In this document: piece after piece, positions 4,976 through 36,887 of the stretch
Position numbering within the stretch: the first letter of the stretch is position 1
Layout: the number at the start of each line of letters is the position of its first letter
Assembly (NCBI GenBank): GCA_003226295.1
Contig: CP029803.1
Location: forward strand, 1,545,477-1,609,476
Source of the DNA: Candidatus Moanabacter tarae
GTDB taxonomy: Bacteria; Verrucomicrobiota; Verrucomicrobiia; Opitutales; UBA2987
Direction: 5' to 3'
Length of the DNA stretch: 64,000 bases
Translations under genes and position numbers: made by a program
Notes under the pieces: generated by a model
The model's database searches: none
The model's input: only the letters and a program-made list of their open reading frames with translations
Told to the model about the DNA's origin: nothing

Positions 4976-6316
4976 TCAATCGGCCTCCGCCGCATCTACG
5001 ATTGTAAACAGGAGTTCAGCCGATGAAGCCACTTTATTACCCACCTTGCAGACTGCCGAGGCAGCCGCCAGCTTTCGGGCACGGACCTTGGTTATTTTGA
5101 CATCGATCACGAGTTGATCACCTGGTACCACTGGCCGCCTGAACTTAACTTTGTCGCAACTCATAAAGAAGGCTACTTTGCCCTCACTCGCAACATGCCT
5201 GAGCATAAGAACACCTGCTGCTTGAGCCATCGCTTCGATCTGCAAGACCGCTGGCATGACAGGACGCCCTGGGAAATGCCCTTGGAAATAGGGCTCGTTG
5301 ATGGAGACATTTTTAATCGCACGCATTTCGAAATTGCTTCGAATTTCAACAACGCGATCAATCATAACAAAGGGATAGCGATGAGGAATAATATCCAGAA
5401 TTCTTCTTACATCCAATTCAGTCTCATTTATTCCTATCGACGGTTCATCTGATTCGTGTCCCTCCGGTTTTCCTTGCTCCCCTGTCTTTCTTTCAAGTTC
5501 TTCAACGAGACTTTTGGTCAATTTGTAATTGAGAGCGTGGCTAGGCTTTACCGCTACAATATGCGCTTTTAGTAAAACACCCAACAAGTGGATGTCCCCT
5601 ACGATATCTAAAATCTTGTGTCGCACGAATTCATCCTCAAAACGAAGAGGTTCCTTCGAGAGAATCTTATTACCCTTTATAACGATCGCTGAATCGAGAC
5701 TTCCTCCTCTAATTTTTCCCTGCCGAAGAAGCTCTTCTATGTCCTCGTAAATCGAGAATGTTCGCGCTGGCGCAATCTCAGAGATATAGGTCTCAGGATC
5801 AAGATCAATTGAGAGATGTTGCGTGTGAAATCCCCTATCGTCGGATGAGGTGCAGGTGATTTTCAGTCCATCATGCGGGAGTGCAACAAGTGATTGATTT
5901 CCTTGAGTCACCGAAACCGGCCGACTCAATTCGAAGTACGATCTCTCTTTTTCCTGTTCAACTAGTTCGCCTTCCAAGAGCAAATCTACGAAAACCTTAG
6001 CAGACCCGTCGATAATGGGTGGCTCACTTCCATCGAGTTCAATCAAAAGATTATCTACCCCAACACCAGAACAGGCACTTAATACGTGCTCAACCGTATG
6101 TATTTTCGTGTAACCCAACGTCACGCCTGTGTTCCGCACTAAATCGGAAACGAGGTCAACACCCGGTTTGATCTTTGGCTTTCCATGAAGATCAACCCTC
6201 TGAAACACAATACCGTGATCTTCCGAAGCCGGCTTCAGGGTCAATCGAACCGGATCCCCCGTATGCAACCCTTTGCCCCGTACCGTTGCCTCTCGTTGTA
6301 TTGTTCTCTGTTTCAT
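4976..6316 (-). CDS. lpxC-fabZ: Bifunctional LpxC deacetylase / FabZ dehydratase fusion
   Basis: One chain carries two enzymes. The N-terminal ~285 residues are LpxC, the committed deacetylase of lipid A synthesis, with Zn ligands in HTVEHVLSA and [10 protein letters not shown] (His and Asp). A charged linker ([18 protein letters not shown]) leads to FabZ, the 3-hydroxyacyl-ACP dehydratase, with [20 protein letters not shown] carrying the catalytic His and Glu. Such fusions are known in Bacteroidota and the PVC group. The fusion ties hydroxyacyl-ACP supply to lipid A flux. I start it at the ATG at 6316 ([12 protein letters not shown]), the usual LpxC N-terminus. A TTG at 6340 would add eight residues unlike the family. 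lpxA follows after 3 bases. Confidence 0.95.
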
Positions 6317-6520
6317 CGAATTCAGGAAGGAGATGGGCAAATTTCTGCCCTACGCTCAACTCCTCTACTAACTCTCCCTACCTATCTTCATTCTATTTTC
6401 ATTCCACTACAAGCTTCGAACGAGACCAGCACATTTTAACGAATTTGAGGCTGATCCCACCCTGCCGGCCCGGAGCAAAAAACGAACCCATAATCACCTA
6501 AAATGTCAATCAGCTACAAT

Positions 6521-16489: not shown

Positions 16490-19400
16490 ATGTCAAGACA
16501 AGCAACTTTACGTTCTCGACTTACAGGCTTTCAAACGCCATTCATCAAGTCTGATGATATGCCGGAACTAGGTTACGAACCCTCCTCTCTACCCAGAGAA
16601 CTTAATCGTCACTATATTGCCGCCAGCGATAATGACATAGCTTTGATGTTGGAAAGGGTTGGGGCAAGCTCTCTTGAAGAACTTTTCAATCACATTCCGA
16701 CAAATTGCCTTTTTACTAGTCCCCCATCGCTTCCAGGGGAACTGCTCTATGAAGAGATACAAGAGAAATTTCAGGCGATAGCAGACCGGAACGAAACTAG
16801 ATCCTCGTTTCTCGGCGATGGTCTACCGCACTATAAAGTCCCTGACATTGTTCCTTTTGTCTCCTCAATTCGAAATCTCACCACAACCTACACTCCCTAC
16901 CAGCCTGAACGAAGCCAAGGCACCCTGATTAGCCACTGGATTTACCAGTGCCTGCTAAGTATGTTGACCGGATTCGAAGCTATTAATTCCTCCCTCTACG
17001 ATAGAGCCACCGCGATCTATGAGGCAATCTGTGCATCAATTCGACTTAGCCGGTCAGCTAATACAGCGATTATTCCGGAAGCGCTCTATCCCGGAGACAT
17101 GCAGGTAATTGATACCCTCGCAGTCGATACCGCAGTAGAAATCGTAAAGCTGCCCTTGGATCCTTTAAATGGATGCATTCCTCTTGGAGAATTGCAGAAT
17201 GCCATCAATGATTGCGGTAATTCCCTGGCCTGTATCGTCTTTCCCCAAATAAATAACCTTGGTTTACTTGAAGATGTCGACGCTCTTACCGACATATGTC
17301 ACAAAACCGGTTCGCGTAGCATCGCCGTGGTGGACCCAATTTTGCTATCCACGGGTGGCCTCAAGCCTCCCAGTGAATTTGGCTCCTTGGGAGCCGACTT
17401 CGTCGTCGGCGAGGCCCAACATCTAGCTACACCGCCCAACTTCGGGGGACCCGGCCTTGGATTATTCGGGGCTCGTTTTAACAGCCAACATAGAAAAGAA
17501 ATACGCTTCACTCCTGGCCGCTATGTAGGGAAAGCTAAAGATCTAGCCGGTCGGGACTGTCGCGTGATGGTCCTCTCAACTCGAGAACAACATATAAGGA
17601 GAGAAAAGGCGACTTCCAATATCTGCTCGAACCAGGCTTTTATTGCCACAGCAGTTGGGGCCTCTATACTTGCCCGAGGCGAAATAGGAATGACTTCGTC
17701 TTGCTACAAAGCACAAGAGCAAGCCCACCGTGCAGCTAAGATTATCACCGCGGTGAATGGTGTCTCTATAGCCTTTCCAAAAAGACATTTCTTCAATGAG
17801 TTCGTCGTTGAAATTCCTGGGAGCGCTAAAGATCTAATTGATAAAGGTAAACTCTACAATATGCACATTGGGGTCGATGTTTCAGACCGAATTAAAGGTA
17901 CCAGGAGAAACCTCCTTAAGATCTCCTTTTCCGATCGGGACTGTAATATCGATAAACTCGCTAGGTTATTTGGGGAACTCTATGGTAGCCTAAATCGTGG
18001 CATATCGATTCCGAAGATTCCTTCAAAATATCTTCGATCTCGACCAGTCGGTCTACCTCAATTTGAGATCGATACGATCAAATCTTACTATACACGACTT
18101 GGTGAACTTAATGTCAGCCCCGATGATGCTTGCTATCCCCTCGGGTCCTGCACGATGAAATACAATCCCTACCTGAATGACTGGGCCGCATCTCTTCCCG
18201 GTTTTCAAGATACCCATCCTCAGGCACCGATTGAGGATGCACAGGGCTCACTTGAGGTCCTCTACGAAATTCAGGAGTGGTTCAAAGGCATTACAGGACT
18301 TGATGGAGTAACGACTCAACCCGTTGCAGGAGCACAAGGGGAATTAGTCGGGCTCAAGCTCTTTCAGGCTTACCATCGTGATCGGGGAAGCGATCACCGC
18401 GATATCGTCCTGATTCCGGAAACCGCTCACGGGACTAATTTTGCCACTGCTACTATGGCTTCCTTTGGCCTTAACTTGGAAAAAGAGGAAGAATCGGGCA
18501 TTGTTTTCTTAAGAACAGGGAAGGACGGAACCATCGATCTTGACGATCTCCGGAAAAAGACTTCGCGTTACGGCGAACGTATATGTGGGATCATGTTTAC
18601 TAATCCCAATACCAGCGGTATCTTTGAAAAAGAGTTCAAGACTATCGCTGACTGTGTCCATCAGACTGGAGGTCTTGTCTTCATGGATGGGGCTAATCTT
18701 AATGCCATCGCTGGTTGGGTCGACCTCGGCAAAGCTGGGGTTGATGCCGTTCACAGCAACCTACATAAGACGTGGACAATTCCCCATGGGGGGGGAGGCC
18801 CAGGCGATGCTATCGTCGCAGTCAGCAAGCATTTAACTGATTTTCTTCCTGGAATGCAGGTTGAGAAAAAAAACGGCCAATTTTCCTTCGTGCGCCCACC
18901 TAAAAGCATTGGATCCTTTCATCGACACTGGGGAAATTTCGGTCACAAGGTCCGCTGTTATAGTTACCTACTCCGCCTTGGAAGAGAGGGAATCAGACGT
19001 ATGTCCGCTGTCGCAGTTCTCTCAGCTCGGTATCTTTACGAGATCCTCAAAGAAATCTACCCGACCCTACCTAAAGGAGCTGAAAATATTCCACGAATGC
19101 ACGAATTCATCCTTTCTCTAACTCCATCTGATTTCGATCACCTCGAGAAATTCGGTATTCCCAAACCCGCTGCTATAACTAGGCTTGGGAAGCTCTTTCT
19201 CGATTTCGGTTTTCACACCCCAACCGTAGCCTGGCCGGAAGCTTACGGAGTAATGATAGAACCAACCGAAAGTTTTCGTAAAGAGGAACTAGACCGTTTC
19301 GCCAATGCTCTCAAAACTATCATGTATCTAGTTCGAGAAGTCCCTGAAACTCTGATCGGCACTCCGTACTTTACTCCAGTTGATCGCATTGACGAAGTTG

Positions 19401-19552
19401 ACGCCAATCGTAACCTTTGTCTCTCCGAACCCCTTTCCTCACTCCCACCACTCCACATCAATCGAATCTCTCCCCAAAACATAGCCCGAATGTCCATCAA
19501 CGAAATTCGCGATCAAATTATTACCGCCTCGGAATTAGACTCTCAAAAGTGA
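16490..19552 (+). CDS. gcvP: Glycine dehydrogenase (decarboxylating), GcvPA-GcvPB-type fusion
   Basis: A 1020-residue P-protein of the glycine cleavage system, decarboxylating glycine with PLP and passing aminomethyl to the H-protein lipoyl arm. The N-half (residues ~30-500) has TYTPYQPERSQGTL and ASLEEL/NHIP-like features of the alpha subunit of two-subunit enzymes. The C-half (~530-1000) has ACYPLGSCTMKYNP and NLHKTWTIPHGGGGPG, with the PLP Lys at 760. The SQGTL and CTMKYNP wordings resemble split GcvPA/GcvPB rather than the E. coli-type single chain, so this looks like a fusion of the split form. About 30 extra N-terminal residues precede the usual start. No gcvT, gcvH or lpd is nearby. 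Confidence 0.93.
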   Translation: MSRQATLRSRLTGFQTPFIKSDDMPELGYEPSSLPRELNRHYIAASDNDIALMLERVGASSLEELFNHIPTNCLFTSPPSLPGELLYEEIQEKFQAIADRNETRSSFLGDGLPHYKVPDIVPFVSSIRNLTTTYTPYQPERSQGTLISHWIYQCLLSMLTGFEAINSSLYDRATAIYEAICASIRLSRSANTAIIPEALYPGDMQVIDTLAVDTAVEIVKLPLDPLNGCIPLGELQNAINDCGNSLACIVFPQINNLGLLEDVDALTDICHKTGSRSIAVVDPILLSTGGLKPPSEFGSLGADFVVGEAQHLATPPNFGGPGLGLFGARFNSQHRKEIRFTPGRYVGKAKDLAGRDCRVMVLSTREQHIRREKATSNICSNQAFIATAVGASILARGEIGMTSSCYKAQEQAHRAAKIITAVNGVSIAFPKRHFFNEFVVEIPGSAKDLIDKGKLYNMHIGVDVSDRIKGTRRNLLKISFSDRDCNIDKLARLFGELYGSLNRGISIPKIPSKYLRSRPVGLPQFEIDTIKSYYTRLGELNVSPDDACYPLGSCTMKYNPYLNDWAASLPGFQDTHPQAPIEDAQGSLEVLYEIQEWFKGITGLDGVTTQPVAGAQGELVGLKLFQAYHRDRGSDHRDIVLIPETAHGTNFATATMASFGLNLEKEEESGIVFLRTGKDGTIDLDDLRKKTSRYGERICGIMFTNPNTSGIFEKEFKTIADCVHQTGGLVFMDGANLNAIAGWVDLGKAGVDAVHSNLHKTWTIPHGGGGPGDAIVAVSKHLTDFLPGMQVEKKNGQFSFVRPPKSIGSFHRHWGNFGHKVRCYSYLLRLGREGIRRMSAVAVLSARYLYEILKEIYPTLPKGAENIPRMHEFILSLTPSDFDHLEKFGIPKPAAITRLGKLFLDFGFHTPTVAWPEAYGVMIEPTESFRKEELDRFANALKTIMYLVREVPETLIGTPYFTPVDRIDEVDANRNLCLSEPLSSLPPLHINRISPQNIARMSINEIRDQIITASELDSQK

Positions 19553-27729: not shown

Positions 27730-28044
27730 TTACTCGCTAACCCGATCGAGTTCAAGACGTTTGAGATCTCCTTTTAACTCCTTGCCAGCCTTAAACTTGA
27801 TCACCGCTCTCTTGGGAATTACGACGTCCTTCTCCGGCTTATTCGGGTTACGTCCAATTCGCGATTTCCGCACCTGAACCTCAAACACCCCAAAATTCCG
27901 CAACTCCACATTCCTTCCCATGGAAAGGGCCCCTGCAATCGAATCTAGAGTCAATTGTACCACCTCACGGACTTCCTTCTGAGCAAACCCCGTCTTATCG
28001 TAAATACCCAGTACAATGTCTCGCTTCGTAAGGTTCGCTGGCAT
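27730..28044 (-). CDS. HU/IHF family DNA-binding protein
   Basis: A 104-residue nucleoid protein. The family core is VELRNFGVFEV, KSRIGRNPNKPEKDVVIP (the DNA-binding arm with the kinking Pro) and AVIKFKAGKELK. The N-terminal helix-turn-helix dimer part is TKRDIVLGIYDKTGF. The C-terminus carries about ten extra charged residues. Whether it is HU or IHF cannot be told from sequence alone. It is divergent from the ClpX-like gene and followed by hisS. Confidence 0.95.
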   Translation of the reverse strand: MPANLTKRDIVLGIYDKTGFAQKEVREVVQLTLDSIAGALSMGRNVELRNFGVFEVQVRKSRIGRNPNKPEKDVVIPKRAVIKFKAGKELKGDLKRLELDRVSE

Positions 28045-28139: not shown

Positions 28140-29735
28140 ATGAGTGAGAAAGAGCCTACAAACCCCTTTGAGGATCTCCAAAAACAGATCCAAGATGCAC
28201 TTCGGAATCCGAACATTGGTTTGAATCTCCACAAACCGGGTACGTCCGAACAAAACCCAGAAAACGATGATGATAAAGAGTCTCAGAGTCCTGCAGAGAA
28301 CGACGAGGTGATCCTGCGACGGATTCGAGAATTCAACCTGCGGCCTAGAGAGATCCGTGATTATCTTAACCGGTTTGTGATTAAACAGTTAGAGGCTAAA
28401 AAAGTCCTTTCTGTTGCGATTTGTGACCATTACAACCATGTTCGCCAATGCATTGAGAAACCAGATCTGATCCATAGAAACTTTCAAAAACAGAACATTA
28501 TCCTTCTTGGACCAACTGGGGTTGGTAAAACATATCTCATGCGATGCATAGCCAAACTGATAGGAGTCCCTTATATAAAGGCAGATGCAACCAAGTTCTC
28601 CGAGACTGGGTATGTCGGCTATGATGTAGAGGACTTGGTCAGAGACCTCGTTAAGGCAGCTAACGGTAACGTTGATTTAGCTCAGTACGGAATAATCTAT
28701 ATCGACGAGATCGATAAGATTGCTTCCGTAGCTACCGGAAATGGACGCGACGTATCCGGAAGGGGCGTCCAGATTAATCTCCTGAAACTGATGGAGGACA
28801 CAGAGGTAAATCTTCTCAGTCCCACAGATATCACGTCCCAAATGCAGGCAATGATGGAACTATCCCGAGGTGGTCAACCTAGGAAGAAGTCAATCAATAC
28901 TCGCCATATTCTTTTCATCGTAAGTGGTGCATTCGATAAGCTAGCCGACATCGTTAAGAAACGGATTGATAATTCTCAAATCGGATTCAGCAGTTCCCCG
29001 ACAGAATTTGAAGACTCAAAATTTAACTTCCTTAGATTCGTCGAAGCCTCTGACCTCATAAATTTTGGTTTCGAACCAGAATTTGTCGGAAGGCTCCCGG
29101 TCCGAGAGATCTGCGAACCACTCTCAGTAGAAGACCTTGCCAATATCCTTCTAAGCTCGGAAGGGAACATACTCGAACAATACCGTCTTGACTTTAAAGG
29201 TTACGGCCTAGACATCAAAATCGACGAAAAGGCCATTCGAGAGATAGCCCAACGTGCACATAGCGAAAATACCGGGGCTCGGGGTCTCATGACGGTACTG
29301 GAACAAGCTTTTCGGAACTTCAAATTTGAATTGCCCTCCACCGCAGTGAAATCGTTCTCTGTTACGAGTGACACCATAAAAGATCCGGGAAAGGCTTTGG
29401 ACGAGCTCCTCAAAGAGAATGAGGACGCCCAAAGGGAAGTCATGAAAGATGATATTGCGGCATTTGCCAAACGGTTTAAAGACGACCATGATTTAGCTCT
29501 GAAATTCGAGGGAGAAGCCTGCCAAGCCTTGATCGATGAGTCACTTCACTCAAAGAAAACAATCCGAGCGCTTTGCGAGGAGAAGTTTTGCGATTTCGAG
29601 CACGGCCTTAAGATCATCTACCGCAATTCGGGAGAGGATTCATTCTCCATTTCGAAAGCAATTGTCGAGGATCCTGACAAAGAGCTCTCCCAAATGGTAG
29701 TTGCCAGTTTTGACGAGAGAAAAAACGGAAAGTAG
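28140..29735 (+). CDS. ClpX-family AAA+ unfoldase, no zinc finger, duplicated C-terminal domain
   Basis: A 531-residue AAA+ ATPase. Walker A is GPTGVGKT (124-131), pore loop GYVG (157-160), Walker B IIYIDE (185-190), Arg finger in FVGRLP (R318) and sensor-2 GAR (379-381). An IGF tripeptide (281-283) sits where ClpX docks to ClpP, which suggests it feeds a peptidase. The four-Cys zinc domain of true ClpX is missing, replaced by an acidic, disordered-looking ~60-residue leader. The C-terminal ~80 residues (about 453-520) mirror the small domain at 361-424: both run E-A-I/L, HS-x2-T, R-L, F-x2-F, SFS, then I-x-DP-x-K-x-L, but the second lacks GAR. It is probably a specialised ClpX paralogue, with substrates unknown. 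Confidence 0.88.
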   Translation: MSEKEPTNPFEDLQKQIQDALRNPNIGLNLHKPGTSEQNPENDDDKESQSPAENDEVILRRIREFNLRPREIRDYLNRFVIKQLEAKKVLSVAICDHYNHVRQCIEKPDLIHRNFQKQNIILLGPTGVGKTYLMRCIAKLIGVPYIKADATKFSETGYVGYDVEDLVRDLVKAANGNVDLAQYGIIYIDEIDKIASVATGNGRDVSGRGVQINLLKLMEDTEVNLLSPTDITSQMQAMMELSRGGQPRKKSINTRHILFIVSGAFDKLADIVKKRIDNSQIGFSSSPTEFEDSKFNFLRFVEASDLINFGFEPEFVGRLPVREICEPLSVEDLANILLSSEGNILEQYRLDFKGYGLDIKIDEKAIREIAQRAHSENTGARGLMTVLEQAFRNFKFELPSTAVKSFSVTSDTIKDPGKALDELLKENEDAQREVMKDDIAAFAKRFKDDHDLALKFEGEACQALIDESLHSKKTIRALCEEKFCDFEHGLKIIYRNSGEDSFSISKAIVEDPDKELSQMVVASFDERKNGK

Positions 29736-35600: not shown

Positions 35601-36887
35601 TCACAGCACTATCCGAATTCCCCGACGCAAATAAGTAGGAACATCGAGATCCTCATCATCGTATATATTGGGATCAGTCGTTTCGAAATATCCTCTTTGT
35701 TCTTCATCCCTGCAGAAATCGAACTCCTCCTGTTCCCGTTTCACCGAATTATTCTTTCGAATCAGCTTTGAACGGTGGACGGGTTTCAGCCGGGCTTCCG
35801 TCTCTAATTCTGGATTCTTGGCTTCGGACCGCCTGTTCTTAACCGACGCCAAGCTTTTGGAAGGACGATATCGACCGCGTCCTTCGATATCGGTTGTTCC
35901 TAACACACAAATACTGAGACTTGCCGATAGATTCTCATCGATTGTCGCCCCGATCAAAGTGCTCTCCTTGCTTCCAAATTTATCCGCGACAATCGTAAGG
36001 ATCTCATTTACTTTGGCCATCGTAAGGTCAGTTCCCCCTGAAAGATTTACAATCAAGTTATCAGCCCGTTTGGAAAACTCTGGTGTATGAAGCAGGGGAC
36101 AGAGCATTAAATCGTTGACTGCTCCACCCACAAAATCGTCACCACTCCCTTTTCCCATTCCGAAGAGCGTCTTGCCGCCTCGGGATTCAAAAACCTTTTT
36201 AAGGGAAGAAAAATCGATATTAATCAAACCAGTCTCAAACAGCATTGAGCAAATCGATTGGATACCCTTGGTAATCCATTCATCAGCCAATGAAAATGCT
36301 TCCAGAACGGTTGCATCTTCATCCGCCTGTTGAAGAAGAATATCATTTGGTAAAGGAATTACGGCGTGGCATATCTTCCGCAATGAAACCAGGCTATCCT
36401 CAGCCTGCCGATGGCGCCGTGAGCCTTCGAGAGTAAATGGAAGAGTGACAAATGCAATCACAACTGCTCCGGCTTCAACTGCTGTCTCCGCCACTATGGG
36501 TGTACTTCCACTTCCCGTACCGCCTCCGAGACCAGCAATCAAAAAGATCAAGTCAGCTCCTATTACGACTTTTTTAATACTATCGCGATCGGCCTCAGCC
36601 GCCTCTCTTCCTATCTTAATCTCTCCCCCAGCTCCTAAACCTCGAGTAATGGGCTTACCGATCATCAGTTTCTCGCTAATCGGAGAAGAAGCCAATACTT
36701 GGCCATCGGTATTGACCGCAGCTAAATTCACCCCTCCTAGGTTATCGAGTTTCAGCCGATCGACAGTATTGTTCCCAGCCCCCCCTACACCGATGACCTT
36801 TACTTTAATCAGATCGCTGGCCGCTTTGTCCTCCGACACTTCGTTGAAATCTTTCGAGTTCCCCTCCTCTATTTTCCTGTCCATCAT
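35601..36887 (-). CDS. ftsZ: Cell division protein FtsZ, divergent T7 loop
   Basis: A 428-residue tubulin-like GTPase forming the Z-ring. The N-terminal VIGVGGAGNN and tubulin signature GLGGGTGSGSTP (119-130) are present, as are VTLPFTLEGSRR and PNDILL. The T7 loop, which completes the GTPase site of the next subunit, reads NIDFSS (223-228) against the usual N-x-DFAD. The Asp matching E. coli D209 is kept (D225), but D212 is Ser228. The C-terminal linker is charged and ends with a normal partner-binding peptide, DVPTYLRRGIRIVL. It overlaps ftsA by ATGA and is the last gene of the dcw cluster. Confidence 0.96.
   Translation of the reverse strand: MMDRKIEEGNSKDFNEVSEDKAASDLIKVKVIGVGGAGNNTVDRLKLDNLGGVNLAAVNTDGQVLASSPISEKLMIGKPITRGLGAGGEIKIGREAAEADRDSIKKVVIGADLIFLIAGLGGGTGSGSTPIVAETAVEAGAVVIAFVTLPFTLEGSRRHRQAEDSLVSLRKICHAVIPLPNDILLQQADEDATVLEAFSLADEWITKGIQSICSMLFETGLINIDFSSLKKVFESRGGKTLFGMGKGSGDDFVGGAVNDLMLCPLLHTPEFSKRADNLIVNLSGGTDLTMAKVNEILTIVADKFGSKESTLIGATIDENLSASLSICVLGTTDIEGRGRYRPSKSLASVKNRRSEAKNPELETEARLKPVHRSKLIRKNNSVKREQEEFDFCRDEEQRGYFETTDPNIYDDEDLDVPTYLRRGIRIVL

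Follow-up and report, generated by a model that had tools for sequence, protein, structure and literature searches.

A ClpX paralogue with a predicted second small domain in Candidatus Moanabacter tarae and its relatives

Background

In textbooks ClpX is a single-ring unfoldase whose subunits have one small domain each, and small domains serve as the rigid-body contacts of ClpX rings. Among related proteins, HslU (ClpY) is an AAA+ unfoldase without a zinc domain that partners HslV; mitochondrial ClpX and yeast Mcx1 belong to a lineage different from that of the protein described here, and we know of no second small domain in either. The mitochondrial proteins are ClpX relatives that act as unfoldases on a dedicated client (PMC7077987). 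The closest studied case found, going by its description, is ClpX3 of Myxococcus xanthus (MXAN_2743), encoded by an isolated, dispensable gene beside the canonical operon and contributing to heat tolerance (PMC11423568). ClpX3 is 43.5% identical to E. coli ClpX and shares with the present protein the absence of an N-terminal domain and of the RKH motif; the two are compared by description only, and a duplicated small domain goes unmentioned in the accessible part of that source (PMC11423568). No published description of a duplicated ClpX small domain was found in the openly accessible literature.

Here the motif content, losses, duplication, predicted fold and constraint of such a paralogue are established from sequence comparisons and structure models. 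A phylum-wide, constrained family with a doubled small domain, in which both specificity elements were dropped and the motor and ClpP loop were kept, amounts to a natural experiment bearing on the capabilities of a small domain and on ways of rewiring the client choice of ClpXP.

Results and discussion

Family assignment

The window is the whole stretch of 64,000 nucleotides that was analysed; coordinates below are positions in it, on the forward strand unless otherwise given. The open reading frame at 28140-29735 starts with ATG and encodes 531 aa, as the sequence-only reading had it. Pfam detects AAA_2 (7.5e-27) and the first small domain only. In NCBIfam the top-ranking family is ClpX, yet the scores fall under both curated equivalog cut-offs (332.5 bits against 359 for NF003745, 302.3 against 370.75 for TIGR00382). 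HslU is the next best distinct family (202 bits), with the protein far below the hslU equivalog cut-off (201.7 against 362.45) and, in contrast to HslU, keeping a ClpX-type [ILVM]GF loop. A phmmer match reached 5e-63. A full-length AF2 model (mean pLDDT 84.5) was searched with Foldseek, and ClpX and ClpXP structures ranked first (E 4.6e-28). A homologous large domain and the small domain fold place the protein in the broad ClpX/HslU-type AAA+ unfoldase superfamily. It shares with ClpX (PDB 6wrf, 3hws) an AAA+ core about 38% identical, the GYVG pore loop, an IGF-type loop, the Arg finger and the sensor-2 GAR, and differs from it in the missing zinc domain and RKH loop, an E to R change in pore 2, an extra C-terminal small domain and the sub-cut-off scores. 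By these sequence criteria the product is a ClpX paralogue, a variant of the ClpX kind distinct from canonical ClpX.

Motor, docking loop and lost specificity elements

Motifs were counted in 172 relatives of the paralogue and in 19 canonical ClpXs of the same phylum. The large AAA+ domain (residues 65-335, 28332-29144), delimited by profile matches and the model, carries Walker A GPTGVGKT (residues 124-131, 28509-28532; 170/172 relatives), the pore-1 loop GYVG (residues 157-160, 28608-28619; 171/172), Walker B IIYIDEIDK (residues 185-193, 28692-28718; 168/172); the Arg finger is present too, and sensor-2 GAR, in the first small domain, is found in all 172. The docking loop agrees with the ClpX-type pattern [LIVMP]G[FL]: it reads IGF in this protein (residues 281-283, 28980-28988), is the predicted site of ClpP docking, and is [ILVM]GF in 171 of the 172. 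The ATPase core, pore loop and IGF loop recognised in the sequence-only reading are present, and their motifs are near-invariant in the relatives. The genome's own canonical ClpX (locus L002, 1315-2604) has LGY at the docking loop where the paralogue has the textbook IGF, and other canonical ClpXs in the phylum have LGF, IGW or VGW.

The N-terminal segment (residues 1-64, 28140-28331) consists of a short helix with a conserved NPFEELQKQ, a low-confidence linker and a further helix, and has no zinc-binding cysteines. Absence of the zinc domain, already noted from the single sequence, extends to the whole family, the C4 motif being found in 0/172 relatives and 19/19 canonical ClpXs. The RKH substrate loop, which grips ssrA, is likewise present in 1/172 and 19/19, respectively, a feature absent from the earlier description. 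Its former site (residues 229-250, 28824-28889) is taken by a Gln/Met-rich helix around QMQAMM, residues 231-242 being helical in the AF2 model. The pore-2 region reads DVSGRGVQ (residues 204-211, 28749-28772) in 168/172 relatives and 0/19 canonical proteins, whereas DVSGEGVQ is found in none of the relatives and in 18/19 canonical ClpXs; DVSGRGVQ is a diagnostic signature of the paralogue.

This motif content leads us to infer a motor that is coupled to ClpP and whose choice of clients has changed. The paralogue would be a hexameric ATPase that pulls polypeptides through its GYVG pore in the manner of ClpX. Since both known ClpX specificity elements are gone, ssrA-tagged and zinc-domain-adaptor clients would not be taken, and altered client choice is more likely than altered assembly.

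The second small domain

The first small domain, here SD1 (residues 336-427, 29145-29420; alignment and model), holds sensor-2 GARGL at residues 379-383 and is followed by a second, SD2 (residues 428-531, 29421-29732; profile, fold and selection), without the sensor-2 motif. The C-terminal 98 residues gave no Pfam match above chance, and the SD2 module is covered by no Pfam or NCBIfam model. That the C-terminal part repeats the preceding small domain had been proposed from patterned residues, and profile alignment bears this out: SD2 (434-531) aligned by hhalign to SD1 (336-433) with Prob 98.2, E 2.9e-14 and score 75.6, against a maximum of 19.4 for 60 column-shuffled profiles. Profiles from wider sets (160 and 172 sequences for SD2 and SD1) scored 83.0 (E 5e-16), and BLASTP between the paralogue's own two copies gave E 1e-4. 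A C-terminal DP-x-K-x-L helix is common to both. The order of helices (H) and strands (E) in the AF2 model is identical, running H344-354 E358-361 H363-375 H381-400 E405-408 H410-414 H416-426 in SD1 and H428-450 E453-456 H458-471 H475-482/H486-497 E501-504 H506-510 H512-530 in SD2, with pLDDT of about 92-97 over the SD2 block. Folded alone, SD2 reached pLDDT 90.4, and the best 50 PDB matches listed for that model were all ClpX (prob 0.92-0.99, TMq 0.49-0.60), with individual E values of 0.05-0.4 that are modest because the domain is short. Structure prediction thus returned the ClpX small-domain fold; a foreign or different fold is ruled out by the profile comparison and the PDB matches, and both lines identify SD2 as a real duplicate small domain. 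The sensor-2 GAR loss proposed earlier holds for SD2, with SD1 keeping the motif.

Against a canonical small-domain profile, which was built on fewer sequences (19), SD2 scored 45.2 (E 2.6e-8) and SD1 124.5. Since SD2 scores higher with the SD1 of the paralogue than with the canonical profile, the duplication most likely postdates the origin of the paralogue, and SD2 most likely arose by internal (tandem) duplication of the paralogue's own SD1.

Distribution, age and constraint

Across 132 genomes of the order, most have a close orthologue, at roughly 49-67% identity, besides canonical ClpX, and whole sets of genera are without it. In the phylum as a whole the paralogue turns up repeatedly, with many lineages lacking it. 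In a scan of GTDB genomes, of which the best 80 loci were listed, matches came from Opitutia, Verrucomicrobiia, Kiritimatiellota and Lentisphaerota, with one Candidatus Poribacteria record (L154, 48%) among the matches listed. The family spans at least Verrucomicrobiota, Kiritimatiellota and Lentisphaerota. In a tree of the core domain, a long branch (1.36, moderate support 0.71) separated all the paralogues from the phylum's canonical ClpXs. That branch has the look of an old paralogue and not of a recent copy, and the family appears to be ancient in Verrucomicrobiota and allied phyla. A mobile-element origin was rejected, there being no close plasmid copy (the best match is an ordinary ClpX, 42%) and one weak viral match (27%).

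Median dN/dS, from 18 usable sequence pairs, was 0.051 for the ATPase domain, 0.108 for SD1 and 0.117 for SD2; purifying selection on SD2 is nearly equal in strength to that on SD1. Decaying C-terminal junk is ruled out by an omega of 0.12 and high pLDDT. The second small domain of the sequence-only reading therefore stands, and its description as degenerate does not, given this omega, the confident fold and phylum-wide retention.

Loss and role of SD2

Several families with small genomes (0.8-1.0 Mb) keep the paralogue and are without SD2. These forms are nested among SD2-bearing relatives, and one genome (G241) has two copies of the paralogue, one full-length and one without SD2 (L159 and L160). 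By parsimony, the pattern of SD2 presence takes six changes, the simplest account being a single gain with five losses. Frameshift or truncation was rejected as the source of these forms: no downstream SD2 was found in ten SD2-less loci, where tblastn with SD2 of relatives lands on SD1 (E 7.6e-9 and 1.7e-8), matches that add support for the duplication; L133 and L145, cut at contig ends, were set aside. As the paralogue is kept without SD2 in several lineages, SD2 is not essential to core activity, and these natural SD2-less relatives make its role directly testable.

Roles in ring assembly and in substrate recruitment, both raised in the sequence-only reading, are plausible. SD2 would not bind nucleotide through sensor 2. 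It would extend the structure at the edge of the ring, where its most likely task is to recruit clients or an adaptor, the alternative being to brace subunits. Recruitment is favoured over assembly because both older specificity elements are lost. That SD2 mainly braces the ring, packing on neighbouring subunits or on SD1 and taking over hexamer stabilisation from the zinc domain without any part in client choice, seems doubtful to us: SD2 does keep the small-domain fold that makes ClpX ring contacts, and the zinc domain, on which dimerisation is described as depending (cited in PMC11423568), is gone, but in lineages without SD2 the remainder of the protein is intact and the RKH loss indicates that client choice changed anyway. 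Our preferred explanation, a second ClpX-type unfoldase that is blind to ssrA, shares ClpP and uses SD2 for recruiting or bracing, is taken as a whole to be fairly likely.

Genome context

The genome (one 2.63-Mb contig) gave three matches: the paralogue, a canonical zinc-bearing ClpX and a weak AAA match. The canonical ClpX is encoded in an operon of the order tig-clpP-clpX. Another clpP is found in the same genome, with a Ser-His-Asp triad that looks intact by eye; a standard clpX with clpP is thus present elsewhere. The paralogue gene is unlinked to clpP. Almost all genomes of the order have two clpPs, whether the paralogue is present or not, and among these genomes no co-loss of the paralogue with clpP copies was found. 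A dedicated ClpP partner is ruled out, two clpPs being the rule regardless of the paralogue.

The absence of linkage and of co-loss would also suit an unfoldase or chaperone that works independently of ClpP and remodels a single partner or a small number of them, in the way that mitochondrial ClpX remodels ALAS; partial unfolding is a known mode of action of ClpX-type chaperones (PMC7077987). We consider this unlikely, since retention of [ILVM]GF across nearly the entire family is hard to explain without a ClpP-type partner. Under the shared-ClpP explanation, the loops would dock on the ClpP that canonical ClpX also uses, and the paralogue probably feeds a different protein set to ordinary ClpP. 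The broader proposal, of a second ClpXP pathway in Verrucomicrobiota and allies that is ssrA-blind and in which a duplicated, catalytically dead C-terminal small domain has taken over the recognition of clients or adaptors from the RKH loop and the N-terminal zinc domain, is offered tentatively, at somewhat less than even chances.

Gene order in Opitutia is conserved as hisZ-HU (divergent)-paralogue-ubiE. The divergent upstream neighbour in the window is an HU/IHF-like gene (27730-28044, reverse strand), and in most Opitutia loci HU lies about 100 bp upstream in this orientation; in three loci (L096 and L142, of Kiritimatiellia, and L137) it is upstream on the same strand as the paralogue. This proximity could indicate a functional partnership, the paralogue controlling, for example, the level of HU or its DNA occupancy, but HU is missing from the neighbourhood in many relatives outside Opitutia. 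Where the paralogue is lacking, genomes retain hisZ, HU beside it in nearly all cases and ubiE in most, and in several families the paralogue is cleanly missing from the interval between HU and ubiE. HU staying in place when the paralogue is lost indicates that the linkage is mostly conserved synteny and that the paralogue gene is dispensable; it weakens the case for HU as an obligate partner, and we regard a partnership of any such kind as very improbable.

Scans for promoters and terminators returned nothing above chance. Elsewhere in the window, 35601-36887 encodes an FtsZ-like protein in which GGTGSGSTP replaces the usual tubulin signature GGTGTGAAP, and two apparent fusions were noted by eye, an LpxC-FabZ protein of 454 aa (4976-6340) and a single-chain glycine dehydrogenase of 1020 aa (16490-19552).
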